From: Plumapathes pennacea
Taxonomy: Eukaryota; Cnidaria; Anthozoa; Antipatharia; Myriopathidae
Length of the DNA: 64,000 bases
Reading direction: 5' to 3'
Assembly: GCA_964036295.1 (NCBI GenBank)
Contig: OZ038466.1
Coordinates: 25,003,997-25,067,996 of the forward strand
Positions within the stretch are counted from its first letter, which is position 1, and the number at the start of each line of letters is the position of its first letter. The notes beneath the pieces were generated by a model. The model had not been told where the DNA came from. It saw only the letters and a program-made list of their open reading frames with translations, and did not search any database. The translations under genes and the position numbers were made by a program. Positions 14,954 to 64,000 of this stretch are shown in pieces.

Positions 14954-14989
<36 letters not shown>

Positions 14990-31700: not shown

Positions 31701-34700
31701 TGTAAGAAAAACATGGGGTTTTCTTTTGCAGAACTACCATGCATACTCTTCTGACAGTCTAAATAGATTTATCAGTTGCTATATTGGAGTGTTGCACTTT
31801 GGTCACATGTATATAATTTGAAAACACTCCTATTTGAGGCACTATATTAGGGAGTTACCTGCAGCATCAGTCTTGACCCGTACCAGGCTGCTGTCCTTTT
31901 TGCAACAGCTTGTCTGTATTCTCACTTGCAGGGAGTAATTTGTGAAGGGTTTGAGACCAGTCAGGATTGTTTTGGTGACATTGTGGGGAACAGTGGAAGG
32001 TGTCATAGAAGATAGCCCATACTTTGAACTTTCAACATAATTTACTGTGTAGTACTGCACAACACCATTGGGCCTGACAGGCCTCTTCCACTTTACAGAC
32101 ACTGCAGTGGCATTCAATGCTGTTGCAATAACTCCAATCGGTGGAGAAGGCACTGTTTGTGTCAAAGAATAGATTGGAGTTAGCTGAAAACTGGCTCTGG
32201 TCAGCATTGGGGGCATTTTGTTGAACAAGAAAAGAGTACAACTTGTAATGTACATGAAAAGGGCTGATGATGATGTTGTATGATAAAGTACCTATGGTAC
32301 TGTACATATGGACTGCAGAATATAATAAAAAAAAATGAAAGTGGTCTTTCCAGCTATGAAGGGGCATTTGCAAACTAAGATAGCACAAGAAATATTCTGG
32401 GCTTCAATGACATACCAGTTGCATTTCCAATGCTCTTCACCACTGATATAGATATGAAGCTTATGGGAGTGACTTGCAACAAAAACTTCATCTCCTGCTC
32501 CTAGCAAAGTCACTTGTTTCTCTTTATTTAGACAATTCCATGTGGTTCAGGACTGACGTACTCACCTCCCTCGATGGTGGATACTTTCAGTTCATGGAAA
32601 TCACTCTTGAAATATCTTGTGGTTGCTGTTAAACGAACCTTGTATTCTGTGTAAGGCTGCAAGTTTTCTAAGTCAAATTTTTCTTTAGGAGGAGAAATCT
32701 TTTTTTCATCCCACTCTCTGCCATCATTTGAGGAATATTTCAGCATGAGGAAACGGATGTCATTTCTCCCCTTCAGTACCTTCAACTTGAATGATAGAAC
32801 TGTTGGTTCCCGTCGATCGATTTGAAGTTGTACAACTGGCTTTCCTAAAAAGGAAGCATTTGCAGATTAGTATAATACTTCTATTTTTACTGTATAAAAC
32901 ATTTCAACAAAGCCAAACTTACAAAAAAAGTGGTTTGAAATAATATAAATTTCCAGATAAATTGCAATTTCCTTTTATCTATATCATTATGGAAAATAGG
33001 ATAAGGCAATCTGAAACTGTACAACGATAATATTGCAGAAGAATATTGTATTCCTTATGGATCAGTTACCTTGTTAATATATATAATGTATTGTTAATAA
33101 CTTTACATCACAAATTCTATAACTAATTTTGAGACTGAGCCACATACATTTAATGAGATGAAAAAATCTTACCAACTTTTTCCAGATTTATATAAAGGGA
33201 ATCAGACCCAAGACTATTCTCCACTTTGCAAGTGTATGGACCAAAGCTTCCTGGATAAGGTGTAACCTTAAGAGTTCTCCCTAATTCTTGTGATTCAGAC
33301 TCAAATACCACTCCACTGGAGTTGCTCCATATGTACTTAGGAGGAGGATCACCATCCGCATTACATGTGAGGTTAACTGCATAGCCAGGAAATGCAGGTA
33401 CATTTTGGCTGGATGAGTTCTTGTTAATCTCAGGAGCATCTGTGGATCAAAACCACTCTTATATACTCAGTTCACCCATTACATTAACACTATAAATACA
33501 TATTACTGTAAAATACCAGTTTTAAGCTCTGGGCTTATCTTTGAGTCAAATTCAACTGTGCAATCATGCATACACCAGATATTAGACTATAGTTTCTGTC
33601 CACCATGCTGGGCATTTGAATAGCAACATGAAATGTTTGTCAGCAGTTGCAAAGCTAAAGGATTTTGTTGTAGATTGGACTTGTCTCTCACTTCACACAC
33701 CACCACTCATCCATCACTTACAGTAAACAGTTATAGAGAAGAAAACTCTATGAGCTTGTCCAAAGCCATTGGATGCAGCACATGCATAGGTTCCTGTGTC
33801 TTTCTTCCTGGCAGAATAGATTCTATATGACTCGCCATGTCCAACAATTTTGTTTCCAGTTAGATGGGTCCATGTGATGTTTGGGGGAGGATAACCCTCA
33901 GCTCTGCATTGCAAAGATAGAGGATCTCCTTCTTCCAATCTGTTATTTTTTGTTGGTTCTGTGGTAATTCTTGGAGCATCTACAATAAAAGATACAGAGT
34001 CAAAATCTGTCTGGGGTAGGGACTCCATCCCCATAGCACTATTTTATAATAAGGCCTATAACATTCTGGAGAAGAAAATCAAAAAGAAGTTACGGAGAAG
34101 AAAATCAAAAAGAAGTTACCAAACATACTTTCTTTTCTTAAATTGTTGAAAGAATCTTTATTTTGAGCTTGGGAGTAAAAGAGTCAGGATTAAAGAATAT
34201 CAAAACTCCCACCCACTACATCAGGTGTGAAAGAGACCCTTCCCTGCAGCATGACTCATTAATAGTTTATTTCTCTTTGCATGTACTGTTCCATGATAAA
34301 GCCAAATTCTAGTTGTGAAACTATTATCAATTCCAACAGGAATACAGTACTGTAATTCATGATACTTGTAAGTTACCATACTTACACCGAACATAAACTG
34401 TCACTTCTGCCCTGGGACCATCCCCATAGTCATTATATGGGACACAGGCATAGATTCCTCTTTGCATCTTGTGGAGCACTGTCACTTTAAGTTTGCCTTT
34501 CATCTGAGCTTCTCGGTTGTTTAACTGCACTTCATTATGTCCAGGTGCCTTGCGATAAAAGCGATACTTTGCTGTGGGGTTTGCAGTGGTTGTGCAGGTG
34601 ATGACTATTGTGCTGCCATCATCGATGGTATCTTGTTTGGCATTAGTCTTTATGGTGGTTTCTTTTGGCTTGTCTACCAACAAAAAAAAAAATGATCAAA

Positions 34701-37700
34701 ATATCAAATTTTGACCCTTACTGGCTACCTATCCCCTAGTAGAACCCCACTATCTCAAACTCTCAAGGGAAGCGAGAAATAGGGAGGGTTCAGCCAAGGG
34801 TTCATTTCCAAGTAAAATCGGATTTCGTTGGAGATAACAGGGAGTTGGAGACAACCGACTTTGAGGTGGCAGAGTTCTACTGTACACCCACAAATTTGAT
34901 TTATGCATTGACATACTCACATTGAACAATGAGGTTCACCTTCCTTTCTTCAGTGCCACCTTTGTTAACTGCCAAGCACTCGTAGTTACCTCTGTCTTTA
35001 TAATTCACTGGATCCAAGGTAAGCTCCAACTTGCTTCTACCTTGTTGCACGGTTTTGCCATCTTTTCTCCATATCACCAGAGGTTTTGGTTTTCCATCTG
35101 CTTGACAACTGAGTATGTATTTTTTTCCCTCCTCAATAGTAACTTTCGACTGCCAGGGACTCGTCTTAATCTTAGGAGGAACTGTCAAACAGAACAAACA
35201 GCATGCCAATGCACCCATCAATAACCCAAGGGGACCAGGTAAGAGAAATTTTGAATTTTAGACATTTCCAAAAGTGTTCATTCAAAACACCATATAATAT
35301 GAATTTGAATTAATGGTCTTTTAATTTGTTAAATCCCCTCCTCTTGCCCAAGCCAATTCTTTGTGGTTAAATTGAAAAATATATATATATTCCTCAACTC
35401 AAAATTACCAAAAATTTACCTGTTGCATTTATGTCTTCCAGTACTATTGTAAACTTTACTGCAGCTTGATTATGGTAGTTTTTAGAGTTATATATAATAT
35501 ATTATTGATATTACTGATTATTGATATTGCAGAAATAAATGTTTCACTTGTACTGTGATCCCATGATACTGTGATTAATAAGTGGTAAAGGCCATTCATG
35601 TTTGTTTAAAAATGATTTCTGGTGCAAACACTGTCTTGTTAACAAAGTATAATAAGCAAAATATTACTACAAAAAAAAAATAAGAATCTGACAGAAATTA
35701 GAAACAATAACAAATCTGTGATAGTTTTGCTGTTAGGATGATGTTTTCTCTGCAAAACTAAATGAGGCTACCTAGACAACACTAACCATAAACGACAGTG
35801 TAAGGACACATGCTATAGATACTACTAAAAATAAATAGGTGATTACGAAAAGACCTCATGTGACTTTTTTAGGTCAATTTTTGTTTTTAATTTCTTTTTG
35901 AAAAACCTAGTAGATAAAATGATAAAAATAAGAACAAAAAAATCTCAAAAAGAAAAACACAAATTGACCTTAAAATTGAAAGTCATATAGGGAATTCTTC
36001 AACACACCCATTCCAATAATGGCAAACAACAATATTCAAGATTATCTGAATTTAGCATTCCCAATTTACAGTCATATACTGCCTGTAACATAAATGTTAT
36101 GTTCTATTTTTCTGGTTCTGCTTGATTCTGAGTATAAATGGAACATAATACCACATAATTAACACCCTATGGAAGAGAATATTGTATTCTTGGGTCATGA
36201 TTATGAATGATGTGTCAAATGAGTGTAATTTGAAAGCCAGTGTTACTCCGCAATAATAGCTGGGTAAAAAGAAAAATACACAAAACTGTTTTTACATTAG
36301 GTAGCAGGGTGGTATTTCTAAAATACTAGTATTTCTTTAGTATTTCTTAGTATTTCTTAAGTATTTTTTATAGCTTCTTAACTTGGGCTTAATTTTTAAT
36401 AATTCAGCAAGTCACCTTTCCACAATTTCTCAATTTCCTCACCCCACCCCTGAGACACTTGCACAGCAGCTGCTCTGTCAAAATTAATGCCAGAAAAACT
36501 TTAACTAATTTATGACTGAAATGCAATTTCCGAACAAACGAAAACAAAAGCCGCTTTTTTACAGATTCATGATAGACAAAATTGAACGTTCAAACGTCAT
36601 AATTCTGTGTTAACTTGTCACAAGTAAGATATGCATTTAGGCTTTTGTTCTACACTGAGACAGCGTAATATGAACCTTACAGTGCAGTTTCTTGGTACCG
36701 TTTAGACGATCTGTGAGGTATAAAAAGTCACGTCAGGGTTAGTTTTCCATCAAGACGGAATATCCTGCAGTATTCATTCCTTCTCACTTTGTTTAGACCC
36801 CATGGACACAATGGACGCCTGCAGATTTGCATCCAATATTAAAATGTCGCTTTCTAAGGGTTTAATAATTTTGTCTTGATTAACGAATATTTCTCCCACC
36901 GACGTCCAAAGCCAAAGTGCTAATTTGAAACGCAAATGGCATGCAGACCACGGCAAATTATTTATGGCCGATCTTTTGAATTTTCAAATCCCTTGTGTAC
37001 TAAAATACCCGGTTCTGTGGGCTTTTTCTGTGTAACGTGACGCGAACTTGCACACCTTGCAATTTAAAACTTGTCTTCCACTAAATATAGAAACATAATG
37101 GACGAACTCCGCGGATAGAAAAGTTCAAATTGGTCTCCAGGCCAGTCTTTTCTCCATATACGAGATTGTTTGCACTGAATGCGAGCATACGGGTAAATCT
37201 AAACAATAATTATTTCTATGTAAATAGGTAAGATGAAAAAAGTATGCTTATATGTTGCACCGCCATCAATCTTGCGGTTTTTATGGTCAGTCATAAACCG
37301 AATTTTGCAACACGTCTATTTTGAGTGAAATGTCAAATTTATATTCATTCGCAAAGTGCTGCCATTAACTAACCCTCTGAACAACATAGAGTCGGCAATT
37401 ATTTCAAAATTTAGCGGATGACAAATCGGGAAATGGCACGAAACAACTGTCTTGGCGCACGTGCATATAATTATTATTCAAGATAACAGTGAACGTATTC
37501 TAACTGAGCTAAAGACTCAACAAGACATCAAAGGCTGCAAGAACCTCAGAAAAACGCGTCCTTAAATACGGCCACCCTTTTCCCGAGCATTGTTTGTGCA
37601 TTTGTTTATCTCTTGCAAACAGATATAGGTTCCATGAAGCTGTCACCGAACGCCATTCTGATCATCACGCCACTTATAAAATCTGGCGCTGAGAAATCGC

Positions 37701-38471
37701 ACAGCGTATTGATTTATCTTTTCGTATCTCTCTCTTCAATTCTGCTGTGTGCGTTTTGAACGAGATCATTAACCAAAAGTCCGCAATCAGAACTCCGAAA
37801 GATATAATCAAAAAGCATCTTTTAAACATCACTATTTCACGGTGGGGAGGACTTTGTGATCCCTTCCTACGGATGTGCTCATTACGAGAGACATAAACGA
37901 AACACTCACCTATAACAACGAGCGTAATCTTTTTCTTGACGGTCCTCACTGCTCCCCTGAGCTCGCACATGTAATCTCCCTCGTCGTCCAGCGTCACTGC
38001 AGAAATGTGGAGTGTTGCGATGCCAATCATCTGCACCCTTCCCTTATAACTTTGAGGGATAGAGCTCATCGGTTGTGGCTTCGAATTTTTGTCAGTCTTG
38101 ACGAAGAAGATGGTTTCAATGTGCCATTCTTTTGGGTTTTTCAACCCCCAGAGTAAAACGTAATCCCCACTATCAACGGTGTACCTCCACACCAGTGACG
38201 CATTCTGAGTAATGTTGACATCCACTTGATCATTATCGTTTGTCAGTTGCAAGTCTTGCATGGAACTGCTCACAACACCTGAGGAAAGGAAGATCACTAA
38301 TCAGCACTTGCCAGTCTGCCAAAAAGGAATCTCGGAATCTCTGCCCTCAAGGCAGCGCATCGAGTGTAAAAATGTGTAGCTATACAGTAATCCTAACTTA
38401 CCGAGACACAGAGAAAACCACAAGAATAGTTGAGGCAACATTCCAGGAGCGTTCAACACTTTGCTTTTCAT
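20424..38471 (-). CDS. Receptor-type protein tyrosine phosphatase, 5 Ig + 4 FN3, two PTP domains (30 exons, 1606 aa)
   Basis: Plasma-membrane phosphotyrosine phosphatase with an adhesion-type ectodomain. Exons in transcript order: 38471-38402, 38278-37910, 35181-34921, 34673-34386, 33979-33722, 33439-33173, 32844-32566, 32152-31859, 31515-31132, 31011-30785, 30373-30304, 29810-29778, 29247-29133, 28707-28583, 26842-26727, 26444-26357, 26033-25957, 25595-25559, 24997-24900, 24737-24618, 24159-23996, 23725-23590, 23473-23324, 22735-22645, 22473-22397, 22195-22061, 21662-21534, 21261-21110, 20735-20600, 20498-20424. All phases agree (4821 nt). Each of the first eleven ectodomain exons starts in phase 1, as in modular shuffled genes. 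Ig+FN3 without a MAM domain is the LAR (R2A) layout, while parts of D1 and D2 resemble R2B and PTPRA types, so I leave the orthologue open. A second Met (residue 11) may be the true start. Confidence 0.93.
21837..21993. mobile_element. MITE-like inverted repeat, copy 1
   Basis: 157 bp with terminal inverted repeats. The left end is GAGCCCGTGCTGGATAATCT, then CCCGAAAAATGGTCCGAAA. The right end is the complement, GACCATTTTTTCGGGAGATTGTCC read in two pieces, ending GTGTGGGCTC. It lies in the phosphatase intron between the 22061 and 21662 exon ends. A related copy is at 54640-54768. Confidence 0.8.
24403..24421. repeat. C19 homopolymer in a phosphatase intron
   Basis: 19 consecutive C in the intron between exons 24737-24618 and 24159-23996 (G19 on the transcribed strand). 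Confidence 0.85.
24854..24873. repeat. C20 homopolymer next to a phosphatase splice donor
   Basis: 20 consecutive C, read as G20 in the pre-mRNA, start 27 nt after the donor of the exon ending at 24900. G-runs this close to a donor often act as intronic splicing enhancers or fold into quadruplexes (general knowledge). The effect here is untested. Confidence 0.85.
26843..28582. other. 1.7 kb phosphatase intron
   Basis: The intron between the juxtamembrane exon and the first D1 exon. It is AT-rich with only short open frames and no repeat I recognise. I see nothing else in it. Confidence 0.6.
29133..29247 (-). other. Transmembrane exon of the receptor phosphatase
   Basis: Encodes a polar stalk ([14 protein letters not shown]), then a single hydrophobic helix from about [12 protein letters not shown] through [10 protein letters not shown], ending at Val-Arg as the cytoplasmic stop-transfer. 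The next exon (28707-28583) gives a basic juxtamembrane segment, RNQKKKQD. Confidence 0.9.
29778..29810 (-). other. 33-nt symmetrical cassette exon of the phosphatase stalk
   Basis: An 11-codon exon ([11 protein letters not shown]), phase 1 at both ends, sits between FN3-4 and the transmembrane exon, with AACCTCTAG before it and GTATGCTA after. It can be skipped without a frame change. This makes it a candidate alternative microexon tuning the juxtamembrane stalk (inference). Confidence 0.65.
34068..34119. repeat. 26-bp perfect direct duplication
   Basis: Two identical adjacent copies of a 26-bp unit starting GGAGAAGAAAATC, in the phosphatase intron between the Ig3 and Ig4 exons. Confidence 0.9.
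35182..37909. other. 2.7 kb phosphatase intron after Ig1
   Basis: The largest intron of the gene, separating the V-type Ig1 exon from Ig2. AT-rich, with TA-dinucleotide stretches near 35385 and 35495 and no supported exon. A 60-codon minus-strand frame at 36774-36956 has no family resemblance. Confidence 0.6.
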
Positions 38472-41400
38472 AAGAGAGGCATTACAAAAGGTTCACTGAT
38501 ATGTTACTTCCACAATCACTGTAACGACTAAGTTAACATCGATTTCGCTCACTTCACGTAAAATACACAACTTCCTTCAGTCGGGTAGATTTTGGCCCTC
38601 TTCAAATTACATTCCATAGTTGACAAGTCACGTGTCACAACCTTGTTGCTGCTCCAAAAAGTATGTTGACGCCAATGATTGGACCAGCACAGCTTGATCA
38701 CAAAATTTAACCAATCAGGAATCCTCTTGACAAATTCAGAAACAAACATCGATTGTTGTCAGGAAAGATAGAACGCGTCTATGGATGTTTAGCAACCAAT
38801 TTACATAGTAATGTCCTCATTTGTTTTGCAAATTGGGTCTGCTTTTTCAGCCGAGAGTCGATTTCAGTTGACGTCTATACGGTGCGAAGTGCTCTGTATT
38901 GCAGTGGCCGACAAGTTATGTATTGTGCTGATCCATCCGAAATGTATTCAAAAAGATGCAAAGAATATTGGTTCCAAAGCTAATATTGACATTGATGGGT
39001 GCAGAACAGAACACTTTACGACATAATCGGTGACAGACTCAAAGTTCAATGACTTTCAGGACAGGATAATTTCATGTGTGTCTTCAATTCTTTGAATTCT
39101 TCCCACTCATAATCAGTACTTATGATCTCTGATCTTATCGCGACTCCGGAAAAACGTGGTCAGCTTATAATATCCTGTTTAGCTGATAGTTCTTTGCGAT
39201 CTCCGCGGGTAACCGAAACACGCAACTGTGAATACACCCGCTTTGGTTGCATAATTTCCAAGCCCACCAAACCACAACAGCTGCCTGCCTGCTACAAGTA
39301 TCCATCGTAGCCCTGAAGTGCTACAATGTAGCTTTATCGATACGCCTGCCCCACTAAAATCTGTTCTTATCGGTCCAAGAATCAGCTTCACTTCTCAAAT
39401 ATATTTTCCTCTGTACTTAGCTAATGCGAGCCGCTGAATTAGAGAAGCCAAAAAAAAAAAACTTTAAACACCTGCTTCAACTTCGCGACGCGTAGGAAAT
39501 CGTGTGGATGTGAGCCGAGTTTTTAAGAAGGAATGAGTACCCAATTTGCAAAATTCCATACAGATATTTATAACCTTGCAGCTATTTTAAGAGAACTTGT
39601 CATTTTTGCCTGCTTCGGTGTCACGATTTTAAGATGGCGGACAGTCGCTAAATCTCGATACAACATTATAAATTGTGCCGTTGGGCAACATGGGGCGCAG
39701 ATCCGGTTGCGTGTACAGCAAACTAAATGTTATGAATTGTGTAGAGTGCCATTTCGATAACACATCAAGCGAGAGCCGATTAAAAACAGGATAAAGGATC
39801 CACTACATTAGCCGTACAACCAATGACTTTGAGTCTTCGGCTTCTGCAAGTAGAAGACTCGATACTACTTTTTTTCGCCCAAACCAATGTTTTAAGCATG
39901 TAAGTTCTTGTCAGTTAGCCAAAAATAATAGTTCTGTTAAAAACCGCTGAGTGCTGCTTGAAGAGTATTAACTGCCAAGCCCAAACTAGAGATTCTCCCA
40001 ACCACTCAAAAGAACGTGCATGTTGGCTTGCCTTTCTTTCTCCAAACTATATCAATCAGTACATTGAAAGAGAAATTAAGGTCGATCACCCTGAGAGTGA
40101 ACAAACTTGGAGGCACGAGCCAACAAAAGCACGTCTGCAAAGGTGTTCGCCTGCCAGTGGATTAGACATAAAATTGTTCGAGCCCTTAATCTGATTGCCG
40201 TTAAATGTCGAACTGAACAGAGATTAGGGAGAGGGGGAATGTAGGTCATGTGAACCGGGATGTGGACTCGATAGAGTCGAAACTCACTCAGACCGTCTCA
40301 AGTTCAAGGACAACCAAATTAGTTTAATATTTGATCTATATTTGCACATTACACACTCAAGCCTGGGTCCTTGTCTTATCTTGACTTGGTGCGTATGTAT
40401 GTATTGTGGTCGTCTGCATGTGCTTGATCAAGGGCCGTCCACAACATCTTCCGGGAAAAACCTTACGCACGAGTTCTGAGGCAGTGCCAAGAGTGGTGAC
40501 CTTTCCAGTCCCTTCAGTTTAGTCTCTTTTTCCTGGTCTTCCTTCAAAACTTGAAATTATAGAGAAGAAGAAAAATAAGAGATGAAAAAAATTCGAGTTT
40601 TCCGCATACTGACGCCTGAGCCATTTTGTGCTTGTTTACGGAAATGACCTTTATCGTCATAGTTTGACATTTTATCAATATTATTCGGGAATGAAAAGTC
40701 AATATAGAGAACACGTACATAAGACAGGAAAATATATTGTTTGCTCCAAATTCCACCCACAGGATTCCATTCCTCTAAGAGTGACAATAATGAAGCTCAC
40801 TGAGTTGTTCTACACACGTACTGTATCGTTTTTAAGTTAGTATCGCATGCAGGGCTGACCTTGCACATGTCTTTTTCTTGATGTATTAAAACAATTCTAT
40901 TTTCACAATTACCATCGAAACTCAATTCCGTAGTTCGTTTCCGGGGCGTCAGTGAACACTTTCAGTTCCTGCCGGGCCCTTACTTATTCTTCAAATATAC
41001 TGTTTCAAATCCTATTGTCCATTCTTTAGTACACTGAGATGGTATATGTGATCTCTTAGCTCCACTCTTCACAAATCTGAGAACAAATTCTGAGAAAAAA
41101 TTGAACGCCTCGACTGAAATTATATTTCCGTGACTTTGTCTAAAAAGCACTTCGATTCAATTACCGACGGACGTAACCGATCAACAAAGATTTTAAATAT
41201 TTAAATATCTCAGAGTTTTGGCGACATCTTCAGCTTATATTTTTACTAAACTCACAGAACCCTGGTAATGTTACTATTTTGTCTTTATGTTGGGAGATGA
41301 TATACTGTGTAAATCTATGACTGCGTCCTAAAGCGTTACTAACTATGTATGGATTTCTAGTAGACAAAAACTGAAGAAAGAAACTTTACAGCCAGTGTCG

Positions 41401-41576
41401 CTGAATCTCTTGTCAACGGTACTCATAAATCAGTATACGGAGAAGATGCCGTAAGTTTTCATGTCAGTGATACTGTTTCTATTATACTGAGTTAGGATAA
41501 TTAGCTTTTGCGGGTGAGCTCCCTAAAAGATGGAAAAATCACAGAAATAATAATTGCAACCAGTTATATCTTTATG
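38472..41576. other. Upstream region of the receptor phosphatase
   Basis: 3.1 kb upstream of the phosphatase start codon. It presumably holds its promoter and any 5' untranslated exon, but no TATA box or initiator could be assigned. An AAGATGGCGG motif (YY1-like) occurs at 39631-39640. The short open frames here have no recognisable product. Confidence 0.45.
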
Positions 41577-42055
41577 TTTGAATAACTGCCTCTTGTGATC
41601 TATGAGAAATGACCAAAATTGGTGTTATAAATCACATTTTTATTTTTCATCAAGCTTTTTTGGTTTCTTTAGGGATTTGTAATTATCTTGGGTTTCTGAC
41701 TCATCTACCACCAGAATTTTTTATTTCAACCACACAACCACAGGAATAAGTAGTGAGTGGGATTTTAACCAAGTAGGAAGGGAGTGTCTCGAACAATGCA
41801 ATTCTTAAGTGCTTGATACTGTTTCCGTCTTCATGCACACCAATATCCTCTTATTTTACCGTTTATCGCGTTTTCAACAGCATTTGGATGTTGTTTTTAA
41901 AAGTTGGAAAAACCAAAGAGAAAAGTTAAAAAATTCAGGTAAACAAAGTATGTTCAGTTGTGTCGTGTTTCATTATAGCGTTAGACATTTTGGAGCCAAA
42001 CATTCTTCGTTCGTGGATAGATCGTAAATTGCAAGGATGTTTGTCCAAATAAAGT
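41577..42055. repeat. Diverged 0.5 kb duplication, left copy
   Basis: Same order of short identities as 47630-48120: GACCAAAATTGG, TTTCATCAAGCTTTTT, GGTTTCTTT, TTGTAATTATCTTG, GACTCATCTACCACCAG, ATTGGAGCC-type and GTCCAAAT. Both copies have the same orientation, about 6 kb apart. Confidence 0.6.
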
Positions 42056-42716
42056 GTCGAGAGCCCTCAGGATCAAAAAGATAATCTCCCACTAGTCTGA
42101 TGTACAGTGCCTTTTGAAAACATAAATAAATAAAATGGTTCAGTCACGTTACTTTTGAAGCGAGAAGGACGTTTGACCAAACATCTACAATTTTCCTTTC
42201 CCTAATCTGCACGTCAGACTTAGCTAAAAAAGGGACCTTTTTCATCGCAGGGTATTGGCTCGTTAAGAAAAAAAAAAGAAAAACTACGGATCGTTCATCA
42301 ATAACTAAAAGTCCGATTCTACCGGTGAGAAGATTCCACGAGGCCGAATTACGTGTTCCACTGGAATATTTTTAATTTCCTAGTAAACTGTATAACATGC
42401 AATCGTGCACGAAGTTTGTCTCGCCGGGTCACGAGGTTAATCTCGATCTTCAGGTTTTCCGCATCCGCACTGCCATTCATAACATCCAAGATGGCGGCGC
42501 CCGGGAAATCCAAATGAATTTTTTTTGGCCACTATTGATTGGAACATGTATAACAAATACTATAGGTAACGTGACCCAAGCAACCACGTTAATGAAAGTT
42601 TGTTTTTGAGTACCGTATAAAATGGAAAGAGCTTAAAAAATATCCGCTGTAGATTTGCAAAACAGTCAGTGATAGAACAACGTGATGCAAAAATCAATCA
42701 ATCAATCATAACAACA

Positions 42717-43125
42717 CTAGAAGGGATGCACCAAAATGACCGTTCATTTCTGAATACAGCAAAAAATATGCGCATTCAGTAATGAGATACAAACTTGCTT
42801 AAATTACAAAAACTACAACACCAAGAAGGCTGCGCAGAAGAAACCTAGTTCGTCCAAAGTGCGTATTTGCCGTAAGCGAAGTATCCCCCCTCCCCCCCCC
42901 CCCCCCCCCCCCCAAAAAAAAATAAGGATTATGTGCTGAGCTCAAGACGTGCCAAGCCTGCAGCATCATATTATTCGCACGCATCATCTTAGTATATACG
43001 GGCGGGCTTTTAATTGGGCTACCTCGATTGCTTAGTTCATAATGATCGCAAGATCGTTTTATGTAGCGACTTCCTGCTCGTGTGACCAGCAGAAATGAAC
43101 GGTCGTTTTGGTGCATCCCTTCTAG
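42717..43125. mobile_element. Foldback element with 36-bp TIRs at the head of the tandem array
   Basis: The left end is CTAGAAGGGATGCACCAAAA followed by TGACCGTTCATTTCTG. The right end (43090-43125) is its reverse complement with one mismatch over 36 bases. The interior contains a C22 run (42892-42913) and no coding frame. It is immediately followed by tandem derivatives of the same termini. Confidence 0.85.
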
Positions 43126-45190
43126 TGCATACCACAATCTCTGTAAGTACTAGAAGGGATGCATCAAACTGACCGTCATTTTAGTCAGCCGTAAAGTATA
43201 GCTGGATCACCTCAAAAATTTAAAATTCACTCAGTACTGATCGTGAATTTTGCCTCTCCGTCACTGACATACTGTCTTTACTGATTTTGACTTGCATTCT
43301 AATTCAACTCCCATTATCGTGCAAGTCCTATGAGATAGGGTCGTTTTGGTGCATCCCTTCTAGTGCACACCACGATCCCTGTAAATACTAGAAGAGATGC
43401 ATCAAACTGACCATCATTTTAATTAGATTTGTTTCTCCGTCACTCATACAGTTTCTATTCGTACTGACTTGCATTTTAATTTAACTTCCTCGATCATGTA
43501 AGTCCTATGAGATAGGGTCATTTTGGTGCATCCCTTCTAGTGCATGCCACGATCCCTGTAAGGGATGCATCAAACTGACCGTCATTTCAATCAGGTTTGT
43601 TTCTCCGTCCCTCGTACAATTTTCATTTGTGACTTGCATTTTAATTCAATTCCCTTGGTCGTTTGAGTCCTATGACATAGGGTCATTTTGGTGCATCCCT
43701 TCAAGTGCATACCAAGATCTCTGTAAGTACTAGAAGGGATGCATCAGACTGACCGTCACTTTAATCAGCCGTAAAGTATAACCGGATCACCTCAAAACTT
43801 TGAAAATCACTCAGTACTGATCGTCAATTTTCCTCTCCGTCACTGACATACTGTCTTTACTGTTTTTGACTTACATTCTAATTCAACTCCCATTATCGTA
43901 TGAGTCCCAAGAGATGGGGTCGTTTTGGTGCATCCCTTCCAGTGCATACCACGATCTCTGTAAGTACTAGAAGGGATGCATCAAACTGACCGTCAATTTA
44001 ATCAGCCGTAAACATAGCGAAATCAGCTCAAAAAATTGAAATTCGCTCAGTAATGATCATCAATTTGCTGCTCCGTCAGTCATAGTTTTTACGCTTCTTG
44101 ACTTGCATTTTAATTCACCTCCCTTGATTGTGTAAGTGCTATGAGATAAGTTCTAGTGCATACCACGATCTCTGTAAGTATTAGAAGGGATGCATCAAAC
44201 TGACCGTCCAGTTTTAATCAGCCGTAAAGTATAGCCGGATCACCTCAAAAATTTGAAATTCACTCAGTACTGATCATCAATTTGCTGATCCGTCTCATGG
44301 TTTTTACTCTTCTTGACTTGCATTTTAATTTAACTCCCTTGATCGTGTAAGTGTTATGAGATAGGGTCATTTTGGTGCATCCCTTCTAGTGCATACGACG
44401 ATCTTTATAAATACTAAAAGAGATGCATCAAACTGACCGTCCTTTTAATTAGATTTGTTTTTCCGTCACTCATACAGTTTTTGTTTTTACTGACTTGCAT
44501 TTTAATTCATTTCCCTTGGTCGTGTGAGTCCTATGAGATAGGGTCATTTTGGTGCATCCCTTCTAGTGCGTACCACGATCTCTGTAAGTACTAGAAGGGA
44601 TGCATCAAACCGACCATTTTAATTAGATTTGTTTCTCCGTCACTCGCACCGTTTCTTTCTTATTGACTTGAATTTTAATTCATTTCCCTTGGTCGTGTAA
44701 GTCCTATAAGATAGGATCATTTTGGTGCATCCCTTCTAGTGCATACGACGATCTTTGTAAGTACTAGAAGGGATGCATCAAACTGACCGTTACTTAATCA
44801 GCCGTAAAGTATAGCCGGATCACCTCAAAAATTTGAAATTCACTCATTAATTATTGTTAATTTGCCTCTCCCTCACTGACATACTGTCTTTACTCTTTTT
44901 GACCTGTATTTTAATTCAACTCCCTTGATCGTGTAAGTCCTGAGAGATAGGGTCATTTTGGTGCATCCCTTCAAGTGCATAACACGATCTCTGTAAGTAC
45001 TAGAAGGGATGCATCAGACTGACCGTCACTTTAATCAGCCGTAACTATAACGAAATCACCTCAAAAAATTGAAATTCGATCATTAATTTGCTGCTTTGTC
45101 ACTCATAGGTTTCTTCTTGACTTGCATTGTAATTCAACTTTGATCGTGTAAGTGCTATGAGATAGGGTCATTTTGGTGCATCCCTTCTAG
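42717..45190. repeat. Tandem array of foldback (TIR) units
   Basis: About 11 units in tandem. Each starts (C)TAGAAGGGATGCATCAAAC plus TGACCGTC and ends GGGTCATTTTGGTGCATCCC plus TTCTAG, so each unit is itself an inverted repeat. Units are joined by a linker resembling TGCATACCACGATCTCTGTA. Unit starts lie near 43151, 43390, 43563, 43733, 43971, 44185, 44411, 44593, 44766 and 45001. Two size classes are seen, about 170-180 bp and about 215-240 bp, differing by a segment that begins CAGCCGTAAAGTATAGCCGG. The right terminus near 44155 is truncated. Confidence 0.88.
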
Positions 45191-45631
45191 TGCATGCACT
45201 GGTTGCTGCGAGTTCGCCCCTCTATTTGCACTTAGTCCAATAGAGGACGGTTTCGTAGTCTCCTGGATTGATCAACTGTCACCAAAACTGAGTATCAGAT
45301 TTTGCACTTTTAATGCGTCCTTCGCTATGAACACAATCACTGTCCGAAAGAAGAGGCGTAAATTAGGCCCGCGAAAGAGGTCACTTTAGTATATCCTCTG
45401 ATACGGGCAAGGCCCACAAACTTCGGCTTGACACTTCATACAATAGGGGCTATGCAATTTCTTCAAGTGTTTCTGGATACTAGACTCTTCTTTTTTCTTT
45501 CCTTTTTTGTACGGCCACACCCTGGGACAGAGAAAACAAAAGATAATTCGAGAGTAAAACATGTCAGATTCCTTCCGAGCTAAGAGCTAAGTCCGGGAGT
45601 TAAGTGGACGATAATCTCGTATCTTCAACAG

Positions 45632-45731
45632 GATTTGGAAGAAGAGTCAGCTTATAGTGCAAGGCGGAGGCAGATCAGTATTCCGATGGAGTTTTATTCA
45701 GCTGAGGAGGCCACCCCAAGGTCTAACGAAG
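45632..45731 (+). CDS. Orphan exon-like segment
   Basis: 100 nt between a good acceptor (TATCTTCAACAG) and a possible donor (GAAG/GTTAAG). It is open throughout in phase 0 and encodes DLEEESAYSARRRQISIPME and then FYSAEEATPRSNE. The composition looks coding, but no compatible neighbouring exon was found. It could be an exon of an unrecognised or decayed gene, or chance. Confidence 0.25.
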
Positions 45732-47629
45732 GTTAAGTTCTAAATTAACTAAGTCCTCGTCCTCTCTTGATGAAAGTCCAATGCTCGAAAGGACGGCCAA
45801 TACGCACGCCTTTTAGCTGTTCAGCATATCCACATAATCGAAATAGTTTACGTTCGGTTCGTAATCTCTCTGTGCTTTCAATGCCGACTAGCATTCCATT
45901 CCTTCAGATACCAGAGCTGCTTTAGCACGATAAAGCTATAATCCACCTTTAGAACTTTACCGACTCGGCTCTTGGCCAACTGACAACTACGGTCTTGGTA
46001 TTAAACTAAACTAAAATAACTTGTTTTTATAGCTGCTAAATCATAGCCGAAGCCGGAAGGAATTTTATTAAAAAAACTTTTCTTGAGATCCCAAGAAGAT
46101 AAGCAAAGATTACCTGCTTGAACTGGATCCAGTAGTTCCGTCAGCACTTGAATTCAAGTGAAGGTCAACTTTGCCCTCGTGCCATTGGGGCTGAACTCCA
46201 CCGCTCTGCACTTCAACGCCGTGACACAGCTGCCGCCGTTTAAATGTACTCTTTATATGCAAGTGGTTCTATATACACCAAAAAGTTAAATTTGACAGTG
46301 AGGAGTTTTTTGCCGGATCGAGTTAAAGGATTATAATTACTATTGCTTTACAAATCCTCGTCCCTCGTCTTACAACGCCAGTACAGTTATAATAAAAGCT
46401 CGAATGAAAGCTGGGGCGCTAATTTAACCATTGGCCACCTGTAAATAGCAGCTGGGCAAACGGCGACTCGTATTTATTTGACAGATTTTCAGAAGGGTTT
46501 ACGTTATCGGAATTAGGGTCCTTTTTGTAAGCAAGGACTGGGAAGAAGGAGGGCGGGGGAGTTTATTGGAAATAGAGGCGCTTACATGAAAAACAATGAA
46601 GCTGCTTATTAAATGCTGGGCACTAATTTGAACTGTAACTGATCTCTTGCAAATAGACACAATCATCCGTTTTGTATCTTCGCCATTTGTAGCTCGGGAG
46701 ACGTGCTAAAACAAATTTGGGCGGCTATGTAATAAACCCTGTCACTCGACCGGGTCTGTTCATCATCCATTACACTTTCCGTTTCTATACGTACATCAGT
46801 AAGTTCATGACATCATATCAAGCTTGAGCTCGAAAGCCGGGCTCGAAAGTTACTGGAGAATCATCATCTCAAATGCTAGACAATGCTTCCAGTGGGGTTT
46901 CCATCTCGAAATTAATCTGAAAATTGAAACTAAAAAAAAAAAAAAAAAAAAAAAAAAAAGACGAACTCGCAACAGCAGCAGTATGAAAGTTTATTTGGCT
47001 GTTTAATGTCAGAAAAATTGTCCGGGGGCCGGAAGAATGTTCCTCGTGTATGCACGGGATCAGTATACGGGGCAGGCGAAGGTCAAGTGGATCTGTGTTA
47101 CGTTAAAACTGTTACTCCGATTGTTGACTCACTGCCCACATACCATATCGGAGTGGAAGTCACGAAGTGGGAGCATATTAGCAGGCGTTGGGTGGACCTT
47201 TGAAACTATTGAATATACCAATGTGTAGAATCTGTTATGAAAAATTGCTGAGGAAATCTGACAAGAGAGTGAAGAGTGCAATCATCTGCCGGAATTTGTG
47301 ACGTTTTGCACAGTTTATCTCGATCCTTCTGTTTTTCGTTTTCGATGTGAAAAGTCAAAGAGCACTTTAAAGTGTGTCAACGGAAATCTTCTTAAATAAT
47401 CAAGAAAGATCTCTATAGTTTTCCTGTTTTCGCCCAAAGCCTTGCGAAAGCAGCTGTCCGATCACTCTTTATATAAAGACTGTTAATAAACAAAATGTAG
47501 TATCTACCAGGTTGGCAAAATAAATCTCATGAGCTCACCAGGAGATCCGCATAAGATTAAAGTGGACACTATTTTCATAAATAAAGGGCACACCAGATAA
47601 AATATTGTATCAGTTAAATTCTTAAATTT
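45732..47629. other. Intergenic, no gene seen
   Basis: No supported coding sequence. It contains an A28 run at 46932-46959 preceded by AAATTGAAACT, which could be the tail of a retroposed sequence. No parental gene was recognised upstream of it. Confidence 0.5.
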
Positions 47630-48120
47630 GAATAACTCATTTATTAAAATCTGCGAGGTGAGTTGATTTGACCAAAATTGGCGTCAGAAAGCAAATTTTG
47701 TTATCATTTTTGATCAGGCTTTCTGGTTTCTTTTTAGCTTTTGTAATTACCTTGAGTTTTGACTCGTCCGCCATCAGGATTATTTACTTCGACCACAAAT
47801 CCACAAGAATGTGTAATAAAAAACGACTTAAACTAACTGGAAGACCCCCACTTGGAAAATGCACGTTTCGTTTGTCTGCCCAGATCCAAATTGATGTGGT
47901 CTTTTTCTTTTTTGTTTGCCGATGGAATTTTCAAGATCAAGGTAAAAGTAGCCAAGATTTGTTTCAATTCAGACAAATATATTAAAAGTCATAATTTGTC
48001 TACCTGATTAACGTGTTTATATTAATTTAGTGGCGAAGACATATTGGAGCCGAATTCAGCCATATATACCTCGTGGGGTGATCGTAAACAGCATATTTAA
48101 AAAGCATTCGTCCAAATGAA
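47630..48120. repeat. Diverged 0.5 kb duplication, right copy
   Basis: Partner of 41577-42055. Shared landmarks are GACCAAAATTGG, TTTGATCAGGCTTTCTGGTT, TTTGTAATTACCTTGAG, GACTCGTCCGCCATCAGGAT, ATTGGAGCCGAATTC and CGTCCAAATGAAGTG. The two copies bracket the foldback array and the orphan exon. Confidence 0.6.
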
Positions 48121-49591
48121 GTGAGTACTAAAGAGACGCGAAAACACACACTCGCCGGTTTTTGCGTAGCAAGCTTTTTACGGACACCAGCCAGCAGCAA
48201 TTAACGCCACCGGGTTATAGTTACTCGACTGACTAAAGCTCTTTACATACACACATAAGGATAATCATTGCAGCCGTTTGTTTTGGCCTTGTTATAAGCA
48301 CGTCGGGTTTCCTGTGATACTAAAACTTGCTCTATAAGTACGTTGAACGCGGACCAAGGCTGCATAAATATTTTTCTGTTCAATTAATCTTGATCAGTAA
48401 CGGCTGGGCTGCGTTATCAGAACAAGGACCGCTGGACCCCACCCGCTTCTCAGCATAAAAAGAAAAGGTTTTCCACTTTCGAGAGACATGCAGAAGTCTG
48501 ACTGATGCTACAGAATTAGAGCTCCCCGATCTGCGCACAGAAAAACAAACAAACAACTTTTTAAACGGAAGAAGATATATACTGTGCTATAGTTTCTCTG
48601 TCCGGCTGAAATGTTGATTTGACATGAAAACGGTTATATAACTTTAATAGCAACAAATCACCGGCTGAACATAATCTACAAGCGCACTTGTCCAAAATTG
48701 AGGGCTGCGAATCATCTGACCATAAACTGCCCAAACTGACCATAAGCTAAACATAACTAATCCCTAAAGCCAAATGAAAGCAAATCCTAAGTGACTTTTG
48801 GATTAAACTGCTTGTATTAAACAGATTGTTTTTGACAATCCGGAGTTCAAATGTTCTACACCGGCGGTCTTCGCAAAACTTTTCCTTATGTTTGGTTTGC
48901 GTTGAGAAGGATTGTGTCGAAAACGCCTCGATGTCAGCGGGAGCCGATTTTATCACTCTCACAATCAGTCACTTTTATATTAGGAAAAATGCGAACATAA
49001 TTATGTGACTATTAGTTGCCGAGAGTCGAGGCGTCCAAGTCTGAATTTTAGTGAACCAGCCGACTGGAGGTTGCGGTACAGTGTTCGCTCACTCTTCAGT
49101 ACACCGGACACGGGCATTTTCACACTTTCTATTATACATAAACCTTAAACCCTCATAATGAAGTAGGCTTTGTGAATTATCACGCCGGCTTCCCTGGAGT
49201 AAAATCTTTTTAATAAGCTGACTCGTATTAAACGATTAGCTGGGATTTTATACCTGTAAAACACGCAATATATTAATAAAAGGTTCTTTAATTTTCTGTT
49301 TTTCTTTCGTTACCTTAGTGTATTTTATCTCCCTCTAAACATCTCCGAGTAAACATCTACAAGTCTGACCAACGCCTTTCACGAAGCTTCGATGACGTTA
49401 TGGCTTTTTCGAACGCCATCAACTAATAAATTGCCTTTGTTGTTATCACCAAGCGATGATTTAAATAAGCTCTTCTTCTGCAGTTTTAGTTTTTAATTTG
49501 AGATCCCGATCGGCCAACTAAAGCTCTTAAAATTCACCGATTTTCGGTGTTTGTTTTTGGCGGTAAATAGAAACGCCCGAGATAAAGCAGC
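48121..49591. other. Intergenic upstream of the Ig/FN3 gene
   Basis: No supported gene. Only short frames without family resemblance are present, and the sequence is AT-rich. It presumably includes distal control sequence for the Ig/FN3 gene. Confidence 0.5.
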
Positions 49592-49616
49592 GTCACGTGA
49601 CATCGAAATATAAATA
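49592..49616 (+). promoter_or_regulatory. Candidate TATA promoter with E-box
   Basis: GTCACGTGAC (palindromic CACGTG E-box) at 49592-49601 is followed by TATAAATA at 49609-49616. The TATA lies about 190 bp upstream of the Ig/FN3 start codon at 49802, which leaves room for a transcription start near 49640. Motif match only. Confidence 0.4.
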
Positions 49617-49801
49617 AATCACTCGCGACGCAAACAGAACAGGACAAAAGGTGCGTAGACATGTTCGGGCGAGCATGAAGTTGAGCGCGCTTGCAAAGCG
49701 ACCGTTGAGCTACTGAGCTTTCAAAAGTGAAATATCGAAATCGGTTGCGAGCTTGAGCCGGAGCTTGAGCGACGGTTTTCTCTCAGCTGGACGCTGTCAT
49801 T

Positions 49802-52764
49802 ATGAGACTGTATTTAGTGTTCCTCGTGGGTTATGCTTTGTTTGGTAAGAACTGTGCGCACATTGTTTCCGCTTTTCAGACTTTATCCGTTTGTGAAGTC
49901 GTTTTGTTCTTTTTTCCACTCGATAGAACCCGTTTGGAGCGACCCGGACTTTACGACACAGCCGAAGAGTCGCGAAGTGTTCGTTGGCGATGATGTCCAA
50001 TTTGACTGGGGCTACAAAAATGATGACGACAAAAAAGTCGCCGAGGTATACTTTGGCCAGGTGAATGGAAGCGAAGAAATAACAGTTGTGAGGAAAGTGG
50101 TCTCAACAGACGTTCTCCGTTGGAACAGTGAGGTTTCAATGTCGGTGAGGGACAGGATCAAAGTGCAAGAGAGAGATACCGGTGGCAAGACAAGCATGAA
50201 GATCGAGAGAGTTCAGATGAGTGACAAGGGGATATATTTCTGCAAGCTGTCCTGGGTATCTTGGGGTAAACAACCAACGAGTACTGTGTCTCTGCAAGTT
50301 GTCGGTAAGTGCAGATCTAAACGCAAATGGTATACTGTAAAGTGCTCGAGTTCTTATTATCGGGGAGTTCTCTGAAAAGCGCTTTATAGCATGCTTGACT
50401 GAAGGTGTAAATTATTTTAATCAATAGAAACAACTGTCTGCTTTTGAAGGCTTGGTGGTGAGACCGATAGAGTATTAGATATATTTGTCGGTGATGATCG
50501 AGACGTACATGTACTTCCTGGAGTCGTGAACATGCAAGATCCTGCAGATATTCAATTCTTTGCATTTGATGACTCTTGATCTCAACCCAGCTTGAGTGCA
50601 AAGACTGAAGTTGTGGGTTGTGCACTGACGGAAATGAATGTTGAAATTTTTCATCATTATTATTATTATTTTTTTTTTGCACGATCAAAAATTACGCGAG
50701 GCGTGGGGGTCAGTAAGATTCAAATTTCTGGCTTTTGTTTGCCTTAGTCTATTTGCGTTTATCTCTGTTATATCAGACGTGCGAGGGGGTGCCACGACTT
50801 TTTCAGGATCGATGCTTAGAATAAATAACGCAAGAAATTTTCACCGAAAGTTTTAATATACAGCGGAAATTAATGGCCACTCAGAAATGGCGTTAATTTG
50901 TAATATTATTATCAGCCTGGCCAGCTGAGAAGTAACTTTATCCAATGTTTACGAGCTTGACAGGTTTGCACCCAATTTGTAGCGCTTTAGTTTATTACAT
51001 TCACGTTTGCTTTCTATGCAAACGGAAAGAGCAGCCTTCCATGACTCGGCACTGACACGTACAACTCGGGGAATGCTAATTAAGTCGCGATCTTTTCACA
51101 GCTGATTTCATCTGCCCGATATTAAAAGTCTTTTTTGAAAAAGCAACATCAACAAAATGCATTTACGAAATGTGAGTTCTTCCTGTGTTTCGGCATTACA
51201 CAATGAGAAGTCGAGTCATCGGCTATAAATAAAGGCACTTTGAAGTGATTTGCAATGCAGATTATCCGCTCTAAACATGACTCAGTTATTTTTTTAGGCA
51301 ATAAAATAAGAGGTGAGGTTTTGTAGTGTACCGGTATAGCATTATCAATGGTTTTATATACTTTAATGTTTAAAGCTTATTTTCAGCCAGTTTGCATCCA
51401 GCAGTCAAACCACATCTCTGTTGTCTGGTAACAAAACTTAAATTCTGAGACAGCTAGTGTGTTTTTGTTTGTTTGTTTGTTTTTTGAATGAGTAGCATTT
51501 TGTTGCAGATCTTCTGATCACAGATAGTTCAGATGTTAAAAGAGAGTCATGGGATGGACACCAGATCTTGGTAAATTGTGCAGTGAAGGTTGCTGAGGGA
51601 GTATCAGTTCGATTCACTTGGAAGAGAGAGACAAAAGCTGGAAACATAACCTTAAAAAGACAAACTCATGTTGACACAAAGACACAGAGTGAATTGACCT
51701 TGGATACAAATACGGAGGAAGATTATAATGATCTCCTTTGCATCGCCAACACACCATCAACAGAAAAGGTGCACAGAATCACGATAAAGCAGCTAAGTAA
51801 GTTTGACAAGTTTGTTTTTAGTTTTCGGTGAGCTCCCTCTGAGACAGAAACCCTTACTCACCCGTTTCCCTCCCCTTTCTTACTCATCCTCAGTCTCTCC
51901 TCTGCCAAAACACAAAGTGGTACCCAGGCTACCCACACTACTACCAGATGTAGAGGCTGGCATTTGCCCCCAGTAAACAGAGATCAGTCCTTATTTCCTC
52001 ACCAAGAAGGGAGAAGGGGCACAAAGTTTATTTATGTATTTATTTGGTTACAGAATTGCCAGGTCCACCACAAAACTTGCAAGCAATGAGAGTGTTTGAA
52101 CAGGGTCAGTCTGTCAACCATCTGAAATGGGAGAAACCTCTGAATGATGGCGGTTCACCAATAGACAGATATGTTGTTCAGTACAAACCTAAAGATATTA
52201 CAAATTGGGACCTAGCCAAAGAAGAGGAGACGACAAATCTTGAGTTTAAAGAACTTGAGTTGGGGTATAATATGAAGACATATAATGCGCAAGTACGATC
52301 CATAAATAAAGTGGGTCGTAGCAGACCCTCCAATGTGGTGGAAGTCCAGTTAGGTGAGTGAAAACCAACTCCCAAAAGACTGAGTTTTGTAAAATCCAAA
52401 ATCAATCCATGCAACCATACCTGAAATGAACAAAATAAATACCTCCAAAATATTGAATACTTTCAAGATATTCATTGAAGAGTTATTTCAAAACTTGTGC
52501 TACATCTGATCCTTCCCCTGATAGTGATTGCCATATTGCTTTTGCTATGCTGATCCGTGCCTATGCATGACTGTGCCTCTCTGTTGTTCTGTATCTCTCT
52601 ATATTTATATTTGTTTCCTTTCTCTCTTTTCATTCCCAGATCCAGATGTAATTGGTGAGACACAGTCCCGGGCACTTAGCGTGCGACTTGTCTCGTACAG
52701 TGGAATCACTGTGCTGACATGGTACTTTGTGTATGGCTGCATTATGGAACTATTATTTCCTTGA
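49802..52764 (+). CDS. Short cell-surface protein: V-type Ig, Ig, FN3, hydrophobic tail (5 exons, 377 aa)
   Basis: Exons 49802-49844 (signal peptide MRLYLVFLVGYALFG), 49927-50304, 51509-51796, 52054-52353 and 52640-52764, all joined in phase 1, with the stop TGA at the end. Ig1 (about 15-140) has the F-strand MSDKGIYFCKLSW but Trp (50007-50009) where the B-strand Cys should be. Ig2 (141-236) has ILVNCAVKV, FTWKRE and LLCIANTP. FN3 (237-336) has PGPPQNLQ, HLKWEKPLNDGG, YVVQYKP and SRPSNVVEV. The last exon ends in a hydrophobic stretch GITVLTWYFVYGCIMELLFP, read as a GPI-attachment signal or a terminal membrane anchor. No cytoplasmic domain is present. It is divergent from the receptor phosphatase and shares its Ig1 peculiarity, so it may be a paralogous ectodomain or a partner (inference). 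Confidence 0.8.
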
Positions 52765-63954: not shown

Positions 63955-64000
63955 GTGGGCAAGTTGTGTTAATGTAATCAAGGTGCATGATTTTTACAGT

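Follow-up and report, generated by a model that had tools for sequence, protein, structure and literature searches.

Two divergent genes with Trp-for-Cys Ig domains

The window, a stretch of 64,000 nucleotides from contig C5 of the antipatharian Plumapathes pennacea, contains two genes arranged head to head, with 11.3 kb between their start codons. The minus-strand gene encodes a predicted receptor phosphatase. Its signal-peptide exon (38402..38471; ATG at 38471, donor GTAAGT, phase 1 out) is followed by the V-like domain Ig1 (37910..38278, phase 1-1) and by four Ig domains in which canonical cysteines were recognized by eye: Ig2 (34921..35181), Ig3 (34386..34673, with the donor at 34386 or 34377), Ig4 (33722..33979), and Ig5 (33173..33439). 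The extracellular part continues with an FN3-like exon 1 (32566..32844, assigned by eye), an FN3 exon 2 (31859..32152, weak acceptor score), an FN3-like exon 3 (31132..31515, assigned by eye, alternative acceptor 31586), and an FN3 exon 4 (30785..31011, 3' end uncertain). A transmembrane exon (29133..29247) leads to the tandem phosphatase domains D1 (23324..26842, seven exons found), which has the catalytic motif, and D2 (20600..22473, four exons found); the models of both domains are perhaps incomplete. CX5R motifs are present in both, and the pieces of D1 and D2 match Pfam Y_phosphatase at 1e-41 and 2.1e-41, respectively. The nearest PDB matches of D1 are PTPRS, PTPRA, and LAR.

The plus-strand gene has an open reading of 376 aa with a predicted Ig-Ig-FN3 layout and only phase 1 introns. 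It consists of a signal-peptide exon (49802..49844, phase 1 out), the V-like Ig1 (49927..50304), Ig2 (51509..51796), and FN3 (52054..52353), all three of the latter in phase 1-1, and a terminal exon (52640..52764) that encodes a hydrophobic C-terminus without a cytoplasmic tail and ends in the stop codon TGA. The protein ends in SYSGITVLTWYFVYGCIMELLFP, where the best 19-residue hydropathy, 1.56, is weak for a membrane span; the C-terminus may be GPI-signal-like or tail-anchored.

In both genes, Ig1 is a single exon that begins and ends in phase 1 and is placed after the signal-peptide exon. Direct reading locates a Trp codon (TGG) at 38189-38187 on the minus strand, within SLVWRYTV of the phosphatase Ig1, and at 50007-50009, within QFDWGYKN of the plus-strand Ig1. 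Trp-x-Tyr occupies the position of the B-strand Cys in both domains, and alignment of the plus-strand Ig1 with a solved JAML Ig domain puts its Trp opposite the B-strand Cys of that structure. The F-strand Cys is kept (DYMC in the phosphatase, IYFC in the plus-strand gene) and is the sole Cys of each cropped domain. With Trp at B and Cys at F, the canonical Cys pair of the Ig V-set is absent, and therefore the usual B-F disulfide cannot form. The anatomy reported in the initial annotation, namely Trp for Cys in both Ig1 domains, a single-exon phase 1-1 Ig1 directly after the signal exon, genes pointing apart across 11 kb, and a phosphatase tail on one product with no cytoplasmic tail on the other, is borne out by the codons and the predicted exon models.

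The plus-strand Ig1 matches Pfam V-set at 35.8 bits, above the cut-off of 26. The phosphatase Ig1 scores 22.6 bits, under the same cut-off, and passes Pfam ig (26.5 vs 21.8) and I-set (25.1 vs 23.7). Single-sequence structure prediction of the two domains yielded unusable models (pLDDT 46.0 and 45.7).

A large W-x-[Y/F] family clustered on the same contig

V-like Ig domains of a family marked by W-x-[Y/F] were found at 76 places in the genome (E<=0.01, seven seeds pooled). As many as 71 of these places are on C5, and 68 fall into two dense arrays of this contig, at 0.65-1.76 and 9.84-10.43 Mb. Thus, a W-x-Y family, which had been suggested as a search target together with further clustered copies outside the window, does exist in the same genome, and the clustering is strong and on the same contig. 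The window is separated from both arrays by 14.6 Mb or more, and the nearest further family member detected on C5 lies 11.6 Mb from the window pair. Matches at E>0.01 are partly false: C2:13826119 and C3:26929135 turned out on reading to be canonical-Cys domains. One further genome search covered 150 of 368 candidates by scoring. A full-text literature search, judged on titles and the beginnings of abstracts, returned no description of a W-x-Y Ig family.

The 52 family domains that were read had been retrieved through similarity to WxY seeds and therefore are not an unbiased sample; in this set, the B-strand Cys column contains Trp in 51 domains and Phe in one, Trp-x-[Tyr/Phe] occurs in 50, and the F-strand Cys in 51. 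The same column of the family alignment is occupied by Cys in all eight hand-picked canonical domains of this genome. The W-x-Y domains and these eight are split in the tree with support of 97/90, and the split persists (95/85) after removal of the W and Y columns. Each of the nine seed members has a V-set match (E<=0.01), and the family profile matches CEACAM1, JAML, pIgR, and PD-L1 chains. Both window Ig1 domains carry the family marks: Trp in the B column, the F-strand Cys, and a phase 1-1 exon preceded by a signal exon.

Relationship between the two window genes

Compared directly, the two window Ig1 domains are 22% identical over 88 aa by BLASTP and 25% identical by MAFFT. The register leaves the two Trp residues unaligned in the former and misaligned again in the latter, and because of this, pairwise alignment was abandoned in favor of the family alignment. 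In genome searches with each domain as a query, the two do not retrieve each other at E<=1. Such low identity and the unaligned Trp residues are what one would expect if Trp had been gained independently in each domain and the W-x-Y likeness were due to chance. We consider such convergence highly improbable, given that Trp is common to nearly all similar domains read and that the family separates from canonical domains even when the W and Y columns are excluded. Slightly less improbable, but still very doubtful, is the reading of the window as a paired activating/decoy or allorecognition locus that arose by duplication of one recognition domain. It is consistent with the presence of the domain in both genes, with their head-to-head arrangement, and with the tree tests: the AU test does not reject a clade of the window pair (p 0.075 with 60 rows and 0.332 with 52 rows), although the best tree lacks it, and the fit of a clade of the pair plus a copy on contig C12 equals that of the unconstrained tree (p 0.529). 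Beyond the shared domain and this layout, we found no positive evidence for such a locus in the window. Moreover, for each of its three domains, the plus-strand gene has its nearest relative on C12 and not next door (32-33% identity in Ig1, 37% in Ig2, 43% in FN3), and in the tree its Ig1 falls together with that of the C12 gene with support of 99/82. The identity between the window ectodomains in Ig1, 22-25%, is far from the near-identity of recent paired receptors, no more copies were found near the window, and a query made of the plus-strand Ig2 and FN3 matches none of the phosphatase exons at E<=0.01. A recent local duplication of the pair was rejected because of the C12 paralogue. The proposal of a duplicated recognition module thus holds with respect to the shared W-x-Y family and the contrasting phosphatase and tail-less ends; it is not supported with respect to the two genes being a duplicated pair of their own.

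The phosphatase Ig1 forms a long, unplaced branch of the tree (2.36), and its best match in the arrays is weak (E 1.3e-3). A genome search with the phosphatase Ig2-Ig4 gives 43 non-self matches at E<1e-7, of which 32 lie on C5, every one of them within the two array regions; the best two, among the 144 of 1083 candidates scored, are on C9 and C11. By sequence, Ig2-Ig4 may resemble array domains, but this likeness is suggestive only, because matches to I-set are unspecific and C5 carries many Ig domains anyway (34 of the 94 V-set matches listed, with 150 of 659 candidates scored). The phosphatase query matches further C5 exons at 17.97-19.55, 23.97, and 25.96 Mb and a few on other contigs. Five V-set-type domains read in these C5 regions (at 17.60, 17.84, 17.99, 18.61, and 25.99 Mb), separated by 14 to 377 kb from the closest phosphatase exon, have the canonical Cys. 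The window gene is the sole receptor phosphatase seen with a W-x-Y Ig domain, in a comparison that covered these five domains for the other phosphatase regions of C5.

Kinases and other outputs in the arrays

Exons of receptor tyrosine kinases are interspersed among the C5 arrays. One gene, L086, was read through and encodes a W-x-Y Ig domain, a transmembrane segment, and a kinase on one strand within about 5 kb; its joined kinase exons match Pfam PK_Tyr_Ser-Thr at 1.8e-37. The remaining kinases are tied to W-x-Y exons by position. In 15 of the 29 kinase groups on C5, a same-strand W-x-Y exon (E<=1) lies no more than 25 kb upstream, whereas 2000 circular shifts give 0.58 such groups on average (p 0.0005); the count is 14 of 29 for exons at E<=0.01. 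No W-x-Y exon was found within 25 kb upstream of the other 14 C5 groups, or of 61 of 77 groups overall. Two array genes, C5:10099566 and 10138860, have an apparent W-x-Y, Ig, Ig, transmembrane, short-tail layout as judged by pattern and by eye.

For six groups of recent array Ig1 copies, pooled pN/pS is 0.52, 0.49, 0.57, 4.60 (one pair), 0.44, and 1.03; the value for Ig2 of the first group is 0.94. Diversifying selection as a general trend among these copies finds no support in the values, with four of the six groups at 0.44-0.57. One pair of array copies differs by 16 nonsynonymous and 1 synonymous changes.

Functional interpretation

Because their Ig1 domains belong to a large clustered family, the window genes look like outlying family members rather than a self-contained recognition locus. 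In the interpretation that we regard as probable, both belong to a genome-wide family of W-x-[Y/F] V-like Ig receptors whose W-x-Y module is attached to kinase, phosphatase, and tail-less outputs. The domain itself is apparently an ancient and scattered module for recognition, carried by kinase, phosphatase, and anchor-only proteins. What the DNA shows is the predicted exon anatomy, membership of both genes in the family, its clustering, a single kinase output read through, and the phosphatase and tail-less outputs; an immune or self-recognition role of the family would be a further step.

The module would be an N-terminal, single-exon, phase 1-1 V-like domain with Trp for the B-strand Cys, and its phase-symmetrical exons may have allowed shuffling into proteins that differ in output, namely tyrosine kinases, membrane stubs bearing Ig-Ig ectodomains, proteins with EGF-like domains, a single receptor phosphatase, and the tail-less Ig-Ig-FN3 protein. 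The W-x-Y domain would bind a surface partner on an adjacent cell, possibly another W-x-Y domain. The phosphatase could strip phosphate from signals of the same class as those added by the W-x-Y kinases and thereby set their threshold, and the tail-less plus-strand protein might act as an adhesive partner, co-receptor, or decoy.

A serious, though less probable, alternative is ordinary developmental adhesion, with the minus-strand gene as a LAR-like neuronal or epithelial phosphatase, the plus-strand gene as a contactin-like protein, W-x-Y as an old structural variant free of immune or self-recognition meaning, and the arrays as expanded growth-factor-type receptors. It agrees with the D1 matches to PTPRS, PTPRA, and LAR, the combination of Ig, FN3, and tandem phosphatase domains, the isolation of the window pair from the arrays, and the lack of general diversifying selection in the arrays, where four of six groups have a pooled pN/pS of 0.44-0.57. 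However, it is rather recognition families that typically form dense tandem arrays containing recent copies and more than one type of output, and one small array group (pooled pN/pS 1.03) and the pair with the 16:1 ratio depart from the general pattern.

If the recognition-module interpretation holds, W-x-Y on kinase, phosphatase, and tail-less outputs would exemplify one recognition module wired to opposite signals. As allorecognition candidates, the two C5 arrays are better than the window, and they provide a concrete, testable candidate region in an anthozoan; in the part of PMC7563517 consulted, allorecognition loci are named for Hydractinia, and none was met for anthozoans. It is a rather unlikely extension that the arrays form the animal's recognition complex, possibly for self/non-self, in which one Trp-for-Cys V-like domain is borne by tens of receptors, many tyrosine kinases and at least one receptor tyrosine phosphatase among them, and contact is sensed at the level of enzymes, through the balance between the two kinds of receptor, with tail-less versions as partners or decoys.

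Comparison with known systems

Similarly to the type IIa receptor phosphatases (LAR/PTPRS/PTPRD), the minus-strand gene combines N-terminal Ig domains, FN3 repeats, one transmembrane segment, and tandem phosphatase domains with the catalytic motif in D1. LAR usually has three N-terminal canonical Ig domains, whereas the window gene has five, the first of them W-x-Y without the B-strand Cys; it further differs from type IIa in the CX5R motif of D2 and the four FN3-like exons found.

Hydractinia Alr1 and Alr2 are described, in the parts of PMC11067881 and PMC11999971 consulted, as a clustered family of single-pass Ig proteins whose V-set and I-set domains are unusual. Compared by description, C5:10099566 and 10138860 are similar to them in layout. 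Kinase and phosphatase outputs, present here, are unmentioned for Alr in those parts of the two papers (PMC11067881, PMC11999971). Unlike the clustered Alr genes, the window pair lies outside any array, far from the next W-x-Y domain on C5.

Vertebrate paired immune receptors have a common recognition domain on outputs of opposite sign. Together with Ig-type receptor tyrosine kinases, they may offer a functional parallel; in the coral, the opposite signs would be enzymes, a kinase and a phosphatase, and the ectodomains are far from identical.

The family also raises a question of protein folding, namely what keeps the fold together when the F-strand Cys stands alone. The CEACAM1 N-domain is a V-set Ig domain without the canonical B-F disulfide, and the W-x-Y domains share this property. 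Unlike CEACAM1, they have a near-fixed Trp-x-[Tyr/Phe] in place of Cys, keep the F-strand Cys, and occur in tens of paralogues.

The W-x-Y domain family on contig C5

A larger and more interesting Ig family than the two window genes is located elsewhere on their contig, C5. The initial annotation described these divergent genes as sharing a first Ig domain (Ig1) with Trp in place of the B-strand Cys; the Trp codons are indeed found at 38187-38189 and 50007-50009, the F-strand Cys is retained in both domains, and a family of such V-like domains (W-x-Y domains) is clustered outside the window. Using seven W-x-Y domains as seeds, we searched the genome to which the window belongs (24 contigs totalling 290 Mb; window at C5:25003997-25067996). 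Seeds counted, 86 places reach E<=1, of which 76 also reach E<=0.01. The latter are distributed among C5 (71), C1 (3), C2 (1), and C12 (1); C5 makes up 9% of the assembly. On this contig, two dense arrays (C5:650000-1760000 and C5:9840000-10435000), with interspersed receptor tyrosine kinase exons, hold 34 places each; a further place is at 13.45 Mb, and the window genes provide the other two.

The signature was counted in the DNA of 52 family places, leaving out 10 further loci with canonical or generic Ig domains. The B-strand Cys column is occupied by Trp in 51 of the 52 domains (Phe in C5:10238484), and Trp-x-[Tyr/Phe] is present in 50, the other exception being Trp-x-Ser in C5:10307279. 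The F-strand Cys is kept in 51 domains (Ile in C1:38366536), and 33 of the 52 cropped domains contain one Cys only. The presence of YCC at the F strand and a later Cys in 10 of 13 domains read from the second array (C5:10099566-10402543) suggests an alternative disulfide there. The signature is nowhere described in titles and abstract openings of the searched literature, a weak negative given its incomplete coverage.

Among recent copies in the arrays, pooled pN/pS of Ig1 is 0.44-0.57 in four groups, 1.03 in one, and 4.60 in a single pair, C5:10355547 and C5:10389482, with 16 nonsynonymous versus 1 synonymous change; for Ig2, the value in one group is 0.94. Selection on the arrays is relaxed or mixed, and general diversifying selection is not indicated.

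Outputs of the family

One kinase gene was read through: that at C5:1379651 encodes a W-x-Y Ig domain followed by transmembrane and tyrosine kinase exons. With its kinase part as a query and 150 of 368 candidates scored, we found at least 112 exon matches at E<=1e-8 (at least 54 on C5), merging into at least 77 groups (at least 29 on C5). Within the same scored candidates, 15 of the 29 C5 groups and 16 of the 77 overall have, on their own strand, a W-x-Y exon (E<=1) no more than 25 kb upstream; the C5 count was matched in 0.05% of 2000 circular position shifts. At E<=0.01, an upstream W-x-Y place accompanies 14 of the 29 C5 groups, and 14 C5 groups have no such exon within 25 kb even at E<=1. 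By pattern and eye, C5:10099566 and C5:10138860 look like W-x-Y, Ig, Ig, transmembrane segment, and short tail, and C5:696231 like W-x-Y followed by EGF-like repeats. Receptor phosphatase exons are concentrated at C5:17970000-19560000, 23970000, and 25964000-25967500; all five V-set-type domains read from these regions have the canonical Cys, and thus the window gene is the sole W-x-Y phosphatase seen among the domains read.

The two window genes and their relationship

The minus-strand phosphatase gene is predicted to start at 38471 with a signal-peptide exon (38471-38402), directly followed by Ig1 (38278-37910), four more Ig exons, four or more FN3-like exons (both of the two scanned match Pfam fn3), a transmembrane exon (29247-29133), and two phosphatase domains, the last ending near 20.6 kb. 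In the joined exons, the first domain reads [10 protein letters not shown] and the second [10 protein letters not shown]; the closest PDB entries to the first are PTPRS, PTPRA, and LAR. The best genomic match of Ig1 is the domain of the C5:1379651 kinase gene (E 1.3e-3). For Ig2-Ig4, the top two non-self matches are multi-Ig places on C9 and C11, with array domains matching well next; among the 144 candidates scored out of 1083, 32 of 43 non-self matches at E<1e-7 fall on C5, all inside the two array regions. This likeness is only suggestive, because matches to I-set are generic and C5 is also rich in V-set matches (34 of 94 listed).

For the plus-strand gene, five exons are predicted (49802-49844, 49927-50304, 51509-51796, 52054-52353, and 52640-52764), all introns being in phase 1. 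Joined, they give a single open reading of 376 residues, with a signal peptide followed by Ig1, Ig2, and FN3 and a tail-less, hydrophobic C-terminus. Its best non-self match, a gene at C12:12.63 Mb (Ig1 32-33%, Ig2 37%, FN3 43%), has the same domain order and one extra FN3-like exon. Further along the window are genes that we take, by eye from translation, to encode a TOE1-like nuclease (54899-57149, minus strand), a U2A'-like LRR protein (58213-59608, plus strand), and a PIF1-like helicase (61888-63972, plus strand). A low-complexity repeat at 14761-15228 reads in a plus-strand frame as [15 protein letters not shown] units.

The window genes had been proposed to share a duplicated recognition module, a pairing that the analysis does not support. 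In a tree of the 52 family domains and eight hand-picked canonical-Cys domains, W-x-Y and canonical domains are split at 97/90, and at 95/85 once the columns of Trp and Tyr are excluded. The C12 Ig1 and the plus-strand Ig1 form a group (99/82), and the phosphatase Ig1 forms a long branch. A tree constrained to unite the window pair is not rejected by the AU test (p 0.075 with 60 rows, p 0.332 with 52), and one uniting the pair with the C12 copy fits just as well as an unconstrained tree (p 0.529). The plus-strand gene being closest to the C12 gene in Ig1, Ig2, and FN3, a recent local duplication is ruled out; both Ig1 domains may have an old common origin within the W-x-Y family.

Proposed mechanism and comparison with known systems

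What the DNA itself documents is the predicted exon anatomy, the shared signature, the clustering, and three kinds of output: kinase (in the one gene read through), phosphatase, and tail-less. The absent B-strand Cys precludes a standard disulfide, which makes packing of the Trp against the remaining Cys of the F strand probable. Phase-symmetrical exons would allow domain transfer between genes, and the W-x-Y domain could bind a partner on a surface. The window phosphatase might counteract kinases bearing the same domain, and the tail-less plus-strand protein might act as a partner, co-receptor, or decoy. Such a kinase family is unmentioned in the available parts of PMC8662651 and PMC10236652.

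The window phosphatase is predicted to work like a type IIa receptor phosphatase, with the same catalytic layout; however, its ectodomain departs from that type. Hydractinia Alr, as portrayed in the accessible portions of PMC11067881 and PMC11999971, is a family of Ig genes, with domains of the V-set and I-set types, clustered in one complex. The window pair lies outside the arrays and lacks this clustering, and the allorecognition role first suggested for it is not supported. The C5 arrays, likened by description alone, resemble the Alr family in layout and are the better candidate for a recognition complex.
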